A DNA stretch of 13,399 nucleotides from Deltaproteobacteria bacterium (GTDB taxonomy: Bacteria > Myxococcota_A > UBA796), in the NCBI GenBank assembly GCA_002707085.1, contig PALY01000004.1, forward strand, positions 78,646-92,044. Direction: 5' to 3'. The notes beneath the pieces are model-generated. The model worked only from the letters and a program-made list of their open reading frames with translations. It did no database searches and was not told where the DNA came from. Shown piece after piece: positions 2,106 to 11,342 of the stretch (positions are counted from its first letter, which is position 1; each line of letters opens with the position of its first letter). The position numbers and the translations under genes were made by a program.

Positions 2106-2178
2106 TCTCTTTCCTTAATCCCTTCAAACAGTCGAAACTTCTTCATGCTATATCTATGCCACTGAGTGCACATTTCAT

Positions 2179-2182
2179 GGAG
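2179..2182 (+). promoter_or_regulatory. Ribosome binding site deciding the start of the Asp-Ala lipoprotein
   Basis: GGAG with a seven-base spacer to ATG 2190. It lies inside the open frame that begins at GTG 2166 and supports the downstream ATG, which also gives a proper lipoprotein signal peptide. Confidence 0.7.
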
Positions 2183-2189
2183 TACACAC

Positions 2190-3596
2190 ATGTATAAACT
2201 CTTCTTCCTCTCCCCTCTCTTCGCAATCACTCTGTTGGGCTGTGATGATGGGGACAAAGACAGCGATAGCGGAAGCGCTTTTGAAGACTCTGATGCGGAT
2301 GCGGATGCGGATGCGGATGCGGATGCGGATGCCGACGCCGACGCCGACGCCGACCCACCAGAATATTTAGGCTGGGAATTGGAAGGACGCATGCAATACA
2401 AGTCCACGATGAATGCTGCCCCTGAATGCGACGGAATAATTGCCGTGGCTGGCCAAGCGTACGTCGGAGAGTGTGAAAACTGTAATTTCGCATTCCGGAT
2501 GGACAATGAACTCATCGAGGAAGGCGAAACTGCAGACGACTGCGAGTACAATCCATTCCTTTCATGGTTGGATAACGATACCCGCTACAACTTCATTCTG
2601 ACCCACTCAGACAGTGCGTATGTGGCTGGCTACTACTACGAGTACACGGTCTACAATTCCGTACAGATCGGGTACAGCGCATACAACGATTATTACGGTG
2701 TTGAGTATGTGGGACCCTACTGGTTCAACTTCCACTACGATGACAATAGCTTTGATTCCAGCTTCTCACTCGATGGAAATGAGTTCGACTGGACGTTCAA
2801 CTACGAAAGTACCAACGTAGAGTACGGAGATGCCACCTTTATGGATGACTGTGGTGCAGAACTGAGCGACGGTTCGGCCAGTGGAAAGGCGGATGGTGAA
2901 CTCATCGGAACCAACAGCGTAACCTGCGACGGTCTGTACGTGGACGTCTGGGAATTCACTGCAGCAGATGGCGAAAACATCGATATCAGTGTGGACACCA
3001 CTTCGGCTGACACCACCTTCGACCCTGCTTTTTGGATTAACGATGGCGATGAATGTACAACGCACTTTGGCGATGACTCATTCGACTGTACATTCCCCCC
3101 ACCCACATACCAATGCCCAACGCTCGAACTGTCCAGCTTGGATGAAGGGACATACGAAATCGTCATCTTCTCCTATGGCGATTGCACGGCAGATGATGTG
3201 GAGTACAGCCTGACGGTCAATGGTGGTTCAGACATCAACTTGGCCCAAGACAACGCACCTCGATTTGAAGACATGGAGTTCAACACATGGCAGGTCGAAA
3301 CCGCTGGGTGTGGAGTGATGTACGAAGAGGGTGTGCCAGACGATTCAACCCCTTGTTCGATTGACGCTTCCGATGCGGATGCAGACGCCGATGCGGATGC
3401 AGACGCCGATGCGGATGCAGATGCGGACACAGACGCCGATGCGGATGCAGATGCCGATGACACGGGTGCGCCTGCAGACGCCGATGCCGATGCAGACGCC
3501 GATGCGGATGCGGATGCAGATGCAGATGCGGACACAGATGCGGATGCAGATGCAGATGCAGATGCAGATGCAGACGGTGATGACACCGGCGCATAA
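2190..3596 (+). CDS. Secreted acidic lipoprotein with Asp-Ala repeats and a PPC-like domain
   Basis: I place the start at ATG 2190 rather than the in-frame GTG at 2166. The ATG has a GGAG ribosome site seven bases upstream and begins a clean lipoprotein signal (MYKLFFLSPLFAITLLGC, lipidated Cys18). The 468-residue product then has a short Asp/Ser-rich stretch, an Asp-Ala tract (about 35-55), a Tyr- and Phe-rich domain of unknown family (about 58-232), and a beta-rich segment (about 236-345: DVWEFTAADGENIDISVD through LDEGTYEIVIFSYG). The last resembles bacterial pre-peptidase C-terminal (PPC) domains. A second, longer Asp-Ala tail (about 395-461) ends in DDTGA. The acidic tracts probably act as extended linkers or bind divalent cations; this is inference. 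Several Cys pairs suit an oxidising, extracellular location. It is divergent from the sulfatase-like lipoprotein (84 bases apart), and the two may share a regulatory region. Function unknown. Confidence 0.85.
   Translation: MYKLFFLSPLFAITLLGCDDGDKDSDSGSAFEDSDADADADADADADADADADADPPEYLGWELEGRMQYKSTMNAAPECDGIIAVAGQAYVGECENCNFAFRMDNELIEEGETADDCEYNPFLSWLDNDTRYNFILTHSDSAYVAGYYYEYTVYNSVQIGYSAYNDYYGVEYVGPYWFNFHYDDNSFDSSFSLDGNEFDWTFNYESTNVEYGDATFMDDCGAELSDGSASGKADGELIGTNSVTCDGLYVDVWEFTAADGENIDISVDTTSADTTFDPAFWINDGDECTTHFGDDSFDCTFPPPTYQCPTLELSSLDEGTYEIVIFSYGDCTADDVEYSLTVNGGSDINLAQDNAPRFEDMEFNTWQVETAGCGVMYEEGVPDDSTPCSIDASDADADADADADADADADADTDADADADADDTGAPADADADADADADADADADADTDADADADADADADGDDTGA
2292..2354 (+). 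repeat. Hexanucleotide repeat GATGCG/GACGCC (Asp-Ala tract 1)
   Basis: Ten in-frame hexamers plus a final Asp codon. The first six are identical GATGCG, the seventh is GATGCC, and the last three are identical GACGCC. Sorting of synonymous codons into two pure blocks is what replication slippage from two founder units would leave. The tract lies just after the lipid anchor and encodes a flexible, acidic linker. Confidence 0.9.
3372..3575 (+). repeat. Long Asp-Ala codon repeat with higher-order modules (tract 2)
   Basis: About 200 bases of GAY-GCN hexamers encode the C-terminal Asp-Ala tail. An 18-base unit, GATGCGGATGCAGACGCC, occurs twice at the start. At a larger scale two modules follow each other. 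Each is an Asp-Ala run broken by one Asp-Thr (GAC ACA), then a further Asp-Ala run, then Asp-Asp-Thr-Gly-Ala. The first DDTGA is near 3460-3473, and the second forms the extreme C-terminus just after this tract. This suggests both short-unit slippage and duplication of a larger module. Confidence 0.88.
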
Positions 3597-3657: not shown

Positions 3658-4983
3658 TTAGCTGGGCGTAGCTTCTAGCTCTGGATTCGACAGATCCGGA
3701 CCCGGCCCAGCAGTCTTTTCATACCAGTCAATCTTTCCCGTGATCTGCATCAACCAAAACAAAGTCGTGATGCCCAATACGGTAATGGAAAGTCCGGTGA
3801 AGCCTTCAAAGAAATGGGCCACACTAAAACCCACCACGTAAATCATCTGTGCAATGGCTACAGGGCCAAAAGCAAATCGACTCGAAATGACCAACCTCAG
3901 ATAGCTGACCACCAAAACTACACTCGTTCCACTGGCCAAAGCAAAGGCCCATTCGACCGGCAAATGATCTGCCGTATACGCGAACAGCAAGTGGAATGAG
4001 AAGAACGATGCACCAATAAACATGTAGTGAATCGGATGAATACGGTGACCTCGAAGGAAGCTGAGGACATACAGAACCACTGTAAAAAAACCAAGAGAAA
4101 TGGGCGCTGAAGCCGACAACTTGGCACCCAAGTGTCCTGGCTGAACACGTTGTGGCATCACCATTCCAATGTTTTGCCCGGTCATGATGCGATCAAAGGC
4201 CCAATTAAGTATCCACCCCTCATCCGTCCGTTCCTTGGTCGATGGAGACATGGTTCCACCAGGAAAATCAATGGCGTGGAAATCCGTGGTCATCCGCAAT
4301 TGAAAGTTCTCGATTAAACCCGCTTCCTGTGAAACGGAAAGCGGTTGATAGTTCCAAACGGCCACACCTCTCGACACGTACGAGAACATGAAATCTGCAC
4401 CCTTTTCTTTATCGAGCGCGTACCGATATCGAAGAGCACCATTCTGTCGCTCTGCCTTTACAGAGATGTCTTTTCCATTGAGTTCCAACTCAAAACCATC
4501 GTAGGTTCCATCGCCTGAAGGCAACCGAGTCACGATTTCAAACTCTACATTTTCGGCCGCTTTGTCCAACAACTCAGGATTGATCGGGTCCACAATGTAG
4601 CGACCTGAAAAATCCACTGTGTACAGCGGAAACCAAACCAGCCCTTTGCGTCGTTCATCCAAAGCCAAGCCACTACGAACATCCGCCGATACCGGCTCGA
4701 CTTTCCGCTCATATGGAACATCCACCCATTCCGTCTTCTTTTCTTGAGCCTTTGTCTGCGAATTGTAGACAACCGTCTCTTTTTTAGATCGAACCGTCCA
4801 GTGAACAATAAATGTGGGTGAAGCCTGGGTTTGAGGTCTCCCCCATAAACTGCCTACGCTTCCTTCAAGAGATGACTCTTGTGATGTAGTGCGTGCCAAC
4901 ATTGTCCCGGAAAGGGCAATCCAAGCGACGCTAACCAACATGAAAATCCCAATGATGGGCCAAATACGAATCCTTGCTTGCAT
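3658..4983 (-). CDS. creD: CreD-like inner membrane protein
   Basis: A 441-residue membrane protein of the CreD family (inner membrane proteins of the E. coli CreBC regulon, linked to envelope integrity and colicin E2 tolerance; molecular activity unknown). One N-terminal transmembrane helix (about 8-29) is followed by a large beta-rich periplasmic region (about 30-290). Five C-terminal helices follow (about 293-310, 317-338, 343-366, 370-391, 396-416). Family-like features include LVWFPLYTVDFSG, the Asp-Phe-Pro-Gly-Gly-Thr-Met-Ser-Pro segment (239-247), TGQNIGMVMPQR (268-279) and IHPIHY before the second C-terminal helix. I use ATG 4983 because AGGAGG lies four bases before it; an upstream in-frame start at 5028 would add 15 residues without such a site. 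No creBC genes are adjacent. It is divergent from the deoxynucleoside kinase. Confidence 0.84.
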   Translation of the reverse strand: MQARIRIWPIIGIFMLVSVAWIALSGTMLARTTSQESSLEGSVGSLWGRPQTQASPTFIVHWTVRSKKETVVYNSQTKAQEKKTEWVDVPYERKVEPVSADVRSGLALDERRKGLVWFPLYTVDFSGRYIVDPINPELLDKAAENVEFEIVTRLPSGDGTYDGFELELNGKDISVKAERQNGALRYRYALDKEKGADFMFSYVSRGVAVWNYQPLSVSQEAGLIENFQLRMTTDFHAIDFPGGTMSPSTKERTDEGWILNWAFDRIMTGQNIGMVMPQRVQPGHLGAKLSASAPISLGFFTVVLYVLSFLRGHRIHPIHYMFIGASFFSFHLLFAYTADHLPVEWAFALASGTSVVLVVSYLRLVISSRFAFGPVAIAQMIYVVGFSVAHFFEGFTGLSITVLGITTLFWLMQITGKIDWYEKTAGPGPDLSNPELEATPS

Positions 4984-7968: not shown

Positions 7969-8051
7969 AAAGTCCTCCGAGAAATCTGACGTATCACGGA
8001 AGGACTCACACTCGCGGGTGATTAAGCAGCGTGCTACCTTTCGATTCCATT

Positions 8052-8055
8052 GGAG
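8052..8055 (+). promoter_or_regulatory. Ribosome binding site deciding the start of the 8062 lipoprotein
   Basis: GGAG six bases before ATG 8062. It overlaps the in-frame TTG at 8050, which is therefore unlikely to be the start. Confidence 0.65.
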
Positions 8056-8061
8056 TATCGA

Positions 8062-8763
8062 ATGCGCTCAGTTCTTCTTTCCTTATCCGCTCTCGCCATC
8101 GGCGGTTGTGAACCCCCCGAATACAAGTATGCGGGCTACCGCACCTATGAGAGCTTTCCGCTCGATGGGACTCGGACATGGAAGTACAAACATGCCGCAC
8201 ACGACTACCTGCTGGAAGTCGATATGGAGGCCGAGCCTGAAGTTGTCGGCACCACACGGGTCCACACGCTTCGGTACAAGCAAGATGAACCCAGCCGTGT
8301 TTTGTACGCAATCAAATGGTCTTCAGACTCTACAGATGGGGTCCAAATCCATGGATACATCGTAGAAAATGAACCCGCTGAAGTCGCCGATGACGGTGAC
8401 GACACAGGCGAAGCATCCGGTGGAGACGATACCGGTGCCGCCGTCGATACAATCACGGATGGTTGGGTCAACTTCGATCCTCCGCTACAGCTGACCGAGT
8501 ACCAGATGGCACCCGGCGATGTCATGCTTAGCTCTGCGGGCGGTGACGACTACACGACCACTTTTGAGAAAACTGAAAACTGTCCAAACGATTGGCGTGA
8601 CGATTGGACTTGTCTACGAATCGTCGTCGAAAGCTCAGCTTCCGATCCGGCACCGTTTGTGGGTACTTGGCACTGGGCAACAGAGTACGGAACCTCTTTG
8701 TTTGAGCCCGCTGGTGACGTTGCACCATGGACTTTGGTCGAAGCGACGTGGTTCGCCAGCTGA
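8062..8763 (+). CDS. Lipoprotein of unknown function with Asp-Asp-Thr-Gly linker
   Basis: A 233-residue lipoprotein. The signal peptide MRSVLLSLSALAIGGC gives lipidated Cys16. The mature part starts with a Tyr-rich stretch and SFPLDGTRTWKYK (31-43), a pattern common to many bacterial lipoproteins whose N-terminal beta-domain begins Phe-Pro-Leu-x-x-Gly-x-x-Trp. An acidic low-complexity insert with DDTGE and DDTGA (about 109-126) interrupts the protein. The C-terminal half is beta-rich, with WVNFDPPLQL, a Cys174-Cys184 pair that could form a disulfide, and GTWHWATEYG. I do not recognise a named family and assign no function. It is divergent from glpK (93 bases apart). Its 3' end overlaps the next small lipoprotein gene, so the two are likely one transcriptional unit. 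Confidence 0.78.
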   Translation: MRSVLLSLSALAIGGCEPPEYKYAGYRTYESFPLDGTRTWKYKHAAHDYLLEVDMEAEPEVVGTTRVHTLRYKQDEPSRVLYAIKWSSDSTDGVQIHGYIVENEPAEVADDGDDTGEASGGDDTGAAVDTITDGWVNFDPPLQLTEYQMAPGDVMLSSAGGDDYTTTFEKTENCPNDWRDDWTCLRIVVESSASDPAPFVGTWHWATEYGTSLFEPAGDVAPWTLVEATWFAS

Positions 8764-9149
8764 TTTTATTGATGGCGATGAGTTGTGCCGAACCTTCATG
8801 GCGGCATGCAGACCTTCAGCTCGACATCACCCATGCAAACGTTCAAGATACCGATCGAGTTCGTATTTGCATCGATGGTGTACGCATCGAAGAAACCACT
8901 GTGGGACACGGCAAGCTCGCGTTCTCACAGCTTCCTGAACAAGGGCCAATCTCTATCGCAGTCGATCATATTGTTGATGAAGAGAGTGTTGGCGCCATTG
9001 AACCTGTCACACTCGATGAAGATACGCCTTGGGCGGAAGTGCCTTGGGTATCCTGCGAAGGGACATGTACTCCATGCACACAGCAGACATCAACCCCTGA
9101 AAAAGTGGGAGAAAGCCAGCGATTTTTGGCCATCCATTTCGTTGAATAG
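8748..9149 (+). CDS. Small putative lipoprotein overlapping the preceding gene
   Basis: A protein of 133 residues if started at GTG 8748, or 140 if at ATG 8727. I favour GTG 8748 because it opens directly with Arg and a hydrophobic stretch (VVRQLILLMAMSC), giving a plausible but imperfect lipoprotein signal with Cys13. Neither start has a clear ribosome site, so translation may depend on coupling: 8748 overlaps the upstream stop by 16 bases. The mature part is mostly beta-prone (LQLDITHANVQDTDRVRICIDG), then an acidic segment, then a Cys-rich patch with CEGTCTPC, which could hold disulfides or bind a metal. No family is recognised. Shared start overlap suggests a role linked to the upstream lipoprotein. 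The 75-base gap after it holds the parS-like site. Confidence 0.6.
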   Translation: MVRQLILLMAMSCAEPSWRHADLQLDITHANVQDTDRVRICIDGVRIEETTVGHGKLAFSQLPEQGPISIAVDHIVDEESVGAIEPVTLDEDTPWAEVPWVSCEGTCTPCTQQTSTPEKVGESQRFLAIHFVE

Positions 9150-9157
9150 CAACGCTT

Positions 9158-9173
9158 TGTTCCACGTGGAACG
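9158..9173. other. Chromosomal parS site (ParB-binding centromere sequence)
   Basis: TGTTCCACGTGGAACG matches the conserved bacterial parS palindrome TGTTYCACGTGRAACA at 15 of 16 positions; only the last A is G. The inner 14 bases, GTTCCACGTGGAAC, are a perfect palindrome. It lies between genes, eight bases after a stop and 45 bases before the next start, where parS sites are tolerated. ParB dimers bind such sites, load as CTP clamps and organise the origin region for segregation with ParA and SMC. Neither parA nor parB is in the window. A CACGTG-binding transcription factor is the alternative, but the extended match favours parS. Confidence 0.8.
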
Positions 9174-9218
9174 GTGCGACTGCCACGCCAATGATATGTG
9201 TAAGATTCACCGAGGAAT

Positions 9219-11342
9219 ATGGTCATGGGGACCTCCGAAATATTGGACTCAGCCCGCGTAGGATTTGCTGGACTGGACGTATCTCCAGTTATCCAGGAAT
9301 CTGCGCTTTCCAATCTTCAAGCATGGCTCACAGATTCACGCTTCGACGCCTACCGTTCACAGATACTGGCCCAAATAGAAGAAGGCCTGTGGGGCACTTT
9401 GGTCGACAGCTTCTATCGAACCCTTCCCTTTGGAACAGGTGGTCGCCGAGGAACCGTCGGCATCGGACCCAATCGGTTCAACCCTTGGACATTGGCCACA
9501 TCAATTCAGGGACATGCTGCATGGCTTCGCGCCCAACTCGGTGATCAACAACTGTCGGTTGTGATTGGCTACGACGTCCGGCGATTCGACGATTTGGGTG
9601 GCAACCTAGTCCCTGATGCCACCACTCCCGTACGTGGAATTACCAGCAGACATTTTGCCGAAATTGCGACTGAAGTGTACGCCGCCCATGACATCACCGT
9701 GTACCTTCCTCCAGTAGGCGAAATCCTCAGCACTCCTGAATTGTCCTTTGCGGTACGAGCTCTGAGCGCCGACGCAGGCTTGGTCATCTCGGCCAGCCAC
9801 AATCCTCCAGATGACAATGGTAGCAAGTTCTATCATGGCCACGGTGGGCAAATGGTCCCACCATTCGATGGCGAGGTCGCCGACTTTATTGCAGCCGTCG
9901 AAACGACCGAACGGATGTCTATGGACAGGGCGCAAGCCAACGGACTGGTGCGTGAAATCCCAGCGGAAGTACACAAAGAGTACATCGCGGCCAACCTTGC
10001 CGTTAGCCGACACCCCCAAGCCAGAAGTACCCACATTGTCTTTACGCCACTGCATGGGACCGCTGACACCACGGTCGCAGATGTTCTCAATGCCGCAGGG
10101 TTCCCTCTCACCATCGAACCAAGCCAAGCCGGCTACGATGGTTCTTTTCCAAATGTCCCATTTCGAGTCCCCAACCCCGAACGACCCGAAACACTAGCGC
10201 GCGCCATTGCGACGGCAAATGAAGTTGGAGCCTCTATGGTAATGGGCTGCGATCCGGACGCAGACAGGTTGGGGGTCGCAGTAAAGGGAACAGAAGGATG
10301 GAAAACACTAAATGGCAATGAAATCGCAGCATTGGTCTGTCATGCCGCACTCCAGTCTCATTCAAACCATCAACCATTGATCATCAAAACAGAAGTCACC
10401 AGCAGTCTGGTAAGCCGCATCGCCGAAAGTCATGGCGCAACCGTAATCGACCATTTGCTGGTGGGTTTCAAGTACATCGGAGAAGCACTCTTCATGCTTG
10501 AACGAAAGGGGAAGTTCCTGCACGTTGAAGGTGATCCTGAGTGCTTAGCAGCCGGTGTAGAGGAAAGTCATGGTGTGCTGGTCACCCCTGAGATTCGAGA
10601 CAAAGACGCTGCCGGAGGCGCCCTATTATTGGCGGAACTGGCCAGCGTTGAACAACTTCAAGACCGGACATTAATCGATACCCTCAATGATCTCATGAAC
10701 ACCCATGGTGCTGTATACAACCTCTTGTTGAGTACGGTCATGAAAGGGGTTCAAGGGCGAGCCCGTATCGAAGCAGTCCAGCAGTCTTTCCGATCAAACC
10801 CACCCACCAACATTGCTGGGGTGCCGGTCACTTCATTCACCGATCACCAACAACTAGACGGTGTATTTGGCCCCTTTCGTTCCGATACAGATAAGGCCAG
10901 CCGCGACGTTTTGGTGTGGCACTTGGAAGATGGATCTCGGGTCATCCTACGGCCCAGTGGAACCGAACCCAAATCCAAAGTCTATGTCGAGGTATCGGGA
11001 ACCCCTGGCGCGCCTGTGCAAGGGGAGCAAAACCGGCTCCAAAGACTGGCTCAACACATCGGACGCTCGTTCATTCAAGAAATGCTGCGACGTGTAGACA
11101 TTCATCTCCCCGACTGGGCGCTGGAAATTTCAGATTTGGTCAGCATTGAAGATAAAGAAGCCTGGGCAAATCGCGTAATTCCAAGCTTACAAGCGCGTCT
11201 TCAAGACGATCCAGAAACAGCCAAGCAGTGGTTCATCACGCAAATCAAGACAGAACACCGTGCGATGCTTCGCCCCGGTATCGAAGCCATGGCCCGAATA
11301 GAGGGTGTGGACTGTAGCGAACTACTCTCCTGTTTCGACTAG
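9219..11342 (+). CDS. Phosphohexomutase (phosphoglucomutase/phosphomannomutase family) with C-terminal extension
   Basis: A 707-residue alpha-D-phosphohexomutase, which moves phosphate between C1 and C6 of hexose phosphates via a phosphoserine, supplying sugar-1-phosphates for glycan or glycogen synthesis. All four active-site loops are visible: catalytic S193 in ISASHNP, the metal loop D345-P-D-A-D-R350, the sugar-specificity loop GVEESHG (446-452) and the phosphate-binding RPSGTEPKSKVY (578-589). FGTGGRRG (71-78) is the family's N-terminal motif. Typical members have about 450-600 residues. Here about 45 extra residues precede the core, and about 100 follow the phosphate-binding domain. GAGG lies three bases before ATG 9219 and nine before ATG 9225, so 9225 is an alternative start. 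The preceding gap carries the parS-like site. The 3' end overlaps the convergent DUF1460 gene by 21 bases. Glucose versus mannose preference is not determined; the EESHG loop differs slightly from the EESYG of PgcA-like enzymes. Confidence 0.94.
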   Translation: MVMGTSEILDSARVGFAGLDVSPVIQESALSNLQAWLTDSRFDAYRSQILAQIEEGLWGTLVDSFYRTLPFGTGGRRGTVGIGPNRFNPWTLATSIQGHAAWLRAQLGDQQLSVVIGYDVRRFDDLGGNLVPDATTPVRGITSRHFAEIATEVYAAHDITVYLPPVGEILSTPELSFAVRALSADAGLVISASHNPPDDNGSKFYHGHGGQMVPPFDGEVADFIAAVETTERMSMDRAQANGLVREIPAEVHKEYIAANLAVSRHPQARSTHIVFTPLHGTADTTVADVLNAAGFPLTIEPSQAGYDGSFPNVPFRVPNPERPETLARAIATANEVGASMVMGCDPDADRLGVAVKGTEGWKTLNGNEIAALVCHAALQSHSNHQPLIIKTEVTSSLVSRIAESHGATVIDHLLVGFKYIGEALFMLERKGKFLHVEGDPECLAAGVEESHGVLVTPEIRDKDAAGGALLLAELASVEQLQDRTLIDTLNDLMNTHGAVYNLLLSTVMKGVQGRARIEAVQQSFRSNPPTNIAGVPVTSFTDHQQLDGVFGPFRSDTDKASRDVLVWHLEDGSRVILRPSGTEPKSKVYVEVSGTPGAPVQGEQNRLQRLAQHIGRSFIQEMLRRVDIHLPDWALEISDLVSIEDKEAWANRVIPSLQARLQDDPETAKQWFITQIKTEHRAMLRPGIEAMARIEGVDCSELLSCFD

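Follow-up and report, generated by a model that had tools for sequence, protein, structure and literature searches.

The partition systems closest to the locus described here are those of M. xanthus and P. aeruginosa. The 16-bp parS consensus of M. xanthus, TGTTCCACGTGGAACG, is bound by M. xanthus ParB in vitro; a 50-bp probe carrying this consensus was bound, whereas a version with 11 changed bases was barely bound (PMC3899335). The sites are origin-proximal, with 22 of them gathered in a 3-kb cluster that is situated ~4 kb before parA and 35 kb from oriC (PMC3899335). It is also reported that the bactofilins of M. xanthus organise ParABS (PMC5703909). In P. aeruginosa, with its sites parS1-parS10, the same core is found, parS2 and parS3 both reading TGTTCCACGTGGAACA; several sites are origin-proximal, some are intergenic, and degenerate ones such as TGTTCCACGAGGAACG also occur (PMC4368675). 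Four exact sites cluster beside oriC in this organism, and any one of them is enough (PMC4368675). In the lineage considered here, a search by title and abstract, in which subscription journals were scarcely covered, found no published account of parS among the papers listed. The main survey on parS distribution is that of Livny et al. 2007, considered here through PMC3899335 and PMC7333895.

The window, by which we mean the whole analysed stretch of 13,399 nucleotides, corresponds to C4:78646-92044 of the assembly G000 (3.87 Mb, 165 contigs, 72% complete). Readout of the window gives TGTTCCACGTGGAACG at 9158-9173, which is identical to the M. xanthus consensus given in PMC3899335 at 16 of 16 positions and encloses a perfect 14-bp palindrome, GTTCCACGTGGAAC, at 9159-9172. 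The preliminary description had reported a perfect palindromic core of 14 bases, as is indeed present, and a match at 15 of 16 positions, which is true for the degenerate consensus TGTTYCACGTGRAACA. A scan of the window with TGTTYCACGTGRAACA, allowing up to three mismatches, returned 9158-9173 as the single match, with one mismatch. The scan by itself is weak evidence, since shuffled windows also match at this laxity, with a mean of 0.29 matches and at least one match in 49 of 200 shuffles. The features around the site are as follows.

8050..8763, + strand: ORF second before the gap; no Pfam match; ortholog in G001 with 46% identity
8727..9149, + strand: short ORF directly before the gap; no Pfam match; diverged counterpart at the same place in G001
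9150..9224, no strand: intergenic gap of 75 bases containing the predicted parS site; bounded by the ORF stop at 9149 and the probable start ATG 9225, which is aligned with the G001 start
9158..9173, + strand: predicted parS site, TGTTCCACGTGGAACG; palindromic core at 9159-9172; 16/16 with the M. xanthus consensus; core kept in the G001 gap
9225..11342, + strand: phosphoglucomutase/phosphomannomutase-family gene, downstream of the site; Pfam PGM_PMM_I to IV; G001 ortholog at the same place with 58% identity

The phosphohexomutase ORF is listed from its first ATG at 9219, which would give a gap of 69 bases. ATG 9225, in contrast, lines up with the start codon in G001 and is probably the actual start; with the upstream ORF ending at 9149, the gap then measures 75 bases, in agreement with the earlier placement of the site between genes in a gap of that length. 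An automatic assignment had put the site inside an ORF; this was rejected, the ORF being an alternative frame that overlaps the phosphohexomutase gene. The region contains two terminator-like hairpins, one of them at 9140-9154, against 0.9 expected, a number that chance would give. We also note a 476-residue ORF at 2166-3596 of the window, which has no Pfam match and contains long runs of Asp-Ala repeats; repeats of this type can also yield spurious ORFs on the opposite strand.

A genome-wide scan found seven copies of the exact core in G000, every one of them on contig C4 or C16, where 0.06 copies are expected under independent bases and a reversed-pattern control gave one. The end of C4 (117457-120319) and the start of C16 (1-2863) share 2,863 bp that differ at one position (99.97% identity). 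This overlap indicates that the two contigs join, and the number of distinct sites becomes six, C4:119932 and C16:2476 being a single site doubled by the overlap; the seventh site was dropped. A single contig of G003, C5, carries genes from both sides of the junction. The joined scaffold is 268 kb in length, or 6.9% of the assembly, and the odds that, given one site there, the five others would land on it at random are ~2 in a million. With up to two mismatches, 15 places were found in G000 versus seven for the control, from which it follows that the looser matches outside this scaffold are mostly at chance level. The degenerate sites C4:51872 and C16:116542 are left out of the site count.

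The scaffold also bears the marks of a replication origin. Contig C16 carries dnaA, which encodes the only DnaA of G000. In 10-kb bins, GC skew is negative throughout the full bins of C4 and, on C16, as far as 90 kb, from where every C16 bin is positive; cumulative skew reaches its minimum at C16:92060, just beyond the dnaA end and 1.6 kb downstream of the start of that gene. The stretch that separates dnaA from the gene after it contains a strict DnaA box at C16:91778. The six distinct exact sites are located 183.7, 120.1 (the window site), 87.9, 50.6, 36.0 and 0.3 kb before dnaA. The intervals between them are 63.7, 32.1, 37.4, 14.6 and 35.7 kb, and a regular spacing of ~35 kb is not claimed. 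For a chromosome of ~5.3 Mb, a size estimated as 3.87 Mb / 0.724, the 120 kb between the window site and dnaA amount to ~2%. The preliminary description had placed the window near the origin and had proposed mapping all hits relative to parAB, dnaA and the GC-skew minimum. Its placement is supported, six of six distinct exact sites being confined to the 268-kb scaffold that holds dnaA and the skew switch. Evenly scattered hits, a missing chromosomal parB or a terminus-proximal window had been named there as contrary outcomes; none of these was encountered, as a parB of chromosomal type is present and the window is near dnaA. A single 16-mer was enough to assign an unlabelled window correctly to the surroundings of the replication origin, in an uncultured lineage of Myxococcota.

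The partition genes are situated on contig C1, which is 65 kb in length, is separate from C4 and C16 and contains no core parS. A gene for a ParA-type ATPase, parB (ParB_N and HTH_ParB) and a bactofilin gene stand in a row at C1:52495-54761, an arrangement that recalls the link between bactofilins and ParABS in M. xanthus (PMC5703909). The ParB match on C1 is strong, at 160 bits, and C107 gives another, weak one (22.5 bits). In an alignment to Caulobacter ParB, with the numbering placed by matching spacing, the specificity positions read R, A, K and G. R173 and G201 are described as absolutely conserved in ParB (PMC7383237), and the G000 protein keeps the equivalents of both, the position numbers being inferred from spacing. 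G000 accordingly has, beside ParA, a ParB of chromosomal type with recognition residues of the parS-reading type. The CTP motif GERRLRA is present in all five ParBs checked; a motif search for the recognition helix matched two of five, after which the helix of G003 was read by eye and G001 and G037 were left out. No SMC above the family cut-off was found in the G000 assembly (72% complete). SMC is present in six of six relatives searched, which suggests that its lack in G000 is likely due to missing sequence.

From the motif, the confinement to the origin scaffold, the presence of parA and parB, the intact parS-reading residues and CTP motif, and the placement in G001, the 16-mer is almost certainly a chromosomal parS, a predicted loading point for ParB clamps and one of six that precede dnaA on one side. 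By analogy with the known family, ParB dimers would bind the palindrome and, on taking up CTP, would form closed clamps that slide out along the neighbouring DNA. ParA would then separate the ParB-loaded origin regions after replication, and ParB may also load SMC at the origin region. Given that there are several sites, the one in the window probably extends the part of the origin region that ParB covers, and is unlikely to be indispensable by itself.

Conservation was followed in the genus, in the family and in the order. G001 has orthologs of the phosphohexomutase gene and of the genes that flank it left and right, in unchanged order, and the corresponding gap holds the identical 14-bp core while the remainder of the gap has diverged. 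The contigs of G002 break at the site, with C106 ending at 4038 just past the preceding gene and C242 starting at the phosphohexomutase gene. For G003, the only family member from another genus, the best phosphohexomutase match (37%) is on another contig, and no exact core was found at the matching place on its C5. Conservation of the window site rests on two species, since the gap is unassembled and unreadable in G002 and G003 has neither a close ortholog of the gene nor an exact core at the matching place. As to the array, exact core sites number five in G001 and four in G002, and seven of these nine share a gene interval with a G000 site. The sites in common intervals, and the cores that precede dnaA, are the following.

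Same interval, G001: C83, C369, C343
Same interval, G002: C112:1109, C214, C271, C229
Core preceding dnaA, G000: C16:90101-90116
Core preceding dnaA, G001: C343:5477-5492
Core preceding dnaA, G002: C214:3968-3983

The core before dnaA is located ~0.3 kb from the gene in three of three genus members, within an upstream region that is partly conserved. Among 80 dnaA loci of named genomes, several of which end at contig ends, a core near dnaA was found in two, both from genus members (UBA2957 and UBA796), and none was found on the dnaA contig C76 of G003. The intragenic site at C16:2476-2491 is present in the same frame and at the aligned position in G002 (C112:1108-1123), although the surrounding DNA is much diverged. 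The interval of C16:39830 contains a one-mismatch copy in G002. C16:54437 and G002 C271:8946 have flanking genes in common, but the sites do not align with one another and are counted as the same interval only. The G001 C41 site shares just one flanking gene, no counterpart of G001 C370:5058 was found in the contigs compared, and none of the listed core sites of G001 and G002 maps to C4:24149. The exact core at G002 C229:15959 corresponds to the degenerate C16:116542-116557 of G000, 26 kb after dnaA; this difference suggests that sites are gained or lost on the far side of dnaA. With C229 mapping 26 kb after dnaA, the genus has an array that is not wholly confined to one side. In the order as a whole, 35 of 39 genomes carry the exact core and four do not. 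These genomes provide an example in which single parS sites stay between the same genes as the sequence around them diverges; this bears on the question, raised in PMC7333895, of what makes species differ in how many parS sites they have and in how these are clustered.

The position of the site directly before a gene raises the possibility that parS doubles as a local regulatory element, with bound ParB repressing or otherwise altering transcription of the phosphohexomutase gene; an effect on transcription of this gene had been suggested in the preliminary description. In G000 as in G001, the site occupies an intergenic position a short way ahead of the start codon, and there is a precedent in P. 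aeruginosa, where ParB represses genes beside the intergenic parS3 and parS4 and not those at the intragenic parS1 and parS2 (PMC5521831). Nevertheless, a consensus scan, crude for this lineage, found no sigma-70-like promoter in the gap, and the genes that precede the gap are co-directional with the phosphohexomutase gene, so that the site may sit within an operon. Moreover, the array includes at least two sites, C4:24149 and C16:2476, that are embedded in long ORFs and have no gap upstream, and a position before a gene is therefore not a general feature of the array. Control of the phosphohexomutase gene by ParB is possible, as the position of the site and the P. aeruginosa precedent would allow, though as an explanation of the site this dual role appears unlikely.

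Much less probable is that the 16-mer belongs to another regulator of CACGTG type or is a chance palindrome. The matches at three mismatches in about a quarter of the shuffled windows would be in keeping with such an origin; the actual match, in contrast, is near exact, its exact copies are limited to the origin scaffold and are kept in place across species, and one intragenic copy recurs in the same frame and at the aligned place in G002. That the region represents a secondary replicon, i.e., a second chromosome or a megaplasmid that has a parS of its own, could be suggested by the location of parA-parB on the separate contig C1, which is devoid of the core. The scaffold, however, holds the only DnaA of G000, the GC-skew switch and the strict DnaA box just after dnaA, the window contains housekeeping genes including the end of mfd (TRCF domain) and a FGGY-family kinase, and C5 of G003 unites genes from both sides of the C4/C16 junction; a secondary replicon is very improbable. 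With the site taken as a chromosomal parS, a wider and more speculative proposal can be made, which we consider doubtful: the centromere of the genus may consist of single parS sites that follow one another, mostly on one side, in fixed gene neighbourhoods over ~200 kb, uncoupled from parAB and with one site anchoring it immediately ahead of dnaA. If this were true, ParB bound along this series, also ahead of the phosphohexomutase gene, would couple partition to the initiation of replication and to the expression of nearby genes.

The comparison with the described systems brings out the layout. In G000, six single sites are strung out along 184 kb and the 65-kb contig with parB has none of them, which is in contrast to the compact cluster of M. 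xanthus near parA. The degenerate C4:51872 resembles the degenerate sites of P. aeruginosa such as TGTTCCACGAGGAACG (PMC4368675); nevertheless, the exact sites of G000 are spread along one side of dnaA rather than clustered beside the origin. ParB was searched in 17 relatives, and two other families of the same order, f2 and f4, use the same core and the same ParB family as G000. In f4, the core is within 1.5 kb of the parB match in five of five genomes examined. In f2, it is within 1.5 kb of parB in at least five of nine genomes and is absent from the parB contig in three of nine among the matches listed, with G031 unplaced. In the family of G000, no core site is found on the parB contig in four of four genomes, G000 included; as these contigs span just 25 to 65 kb, a site may lie further off. 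The element is of a well-known kind, encountered here in an unstudied lineage, and is a solid and ordinary instance of it. What is mildly notable against the described systems is that the array is spread out and lies mostly on one side, and that the parB contig lacks a core site in all four genomes of the family.
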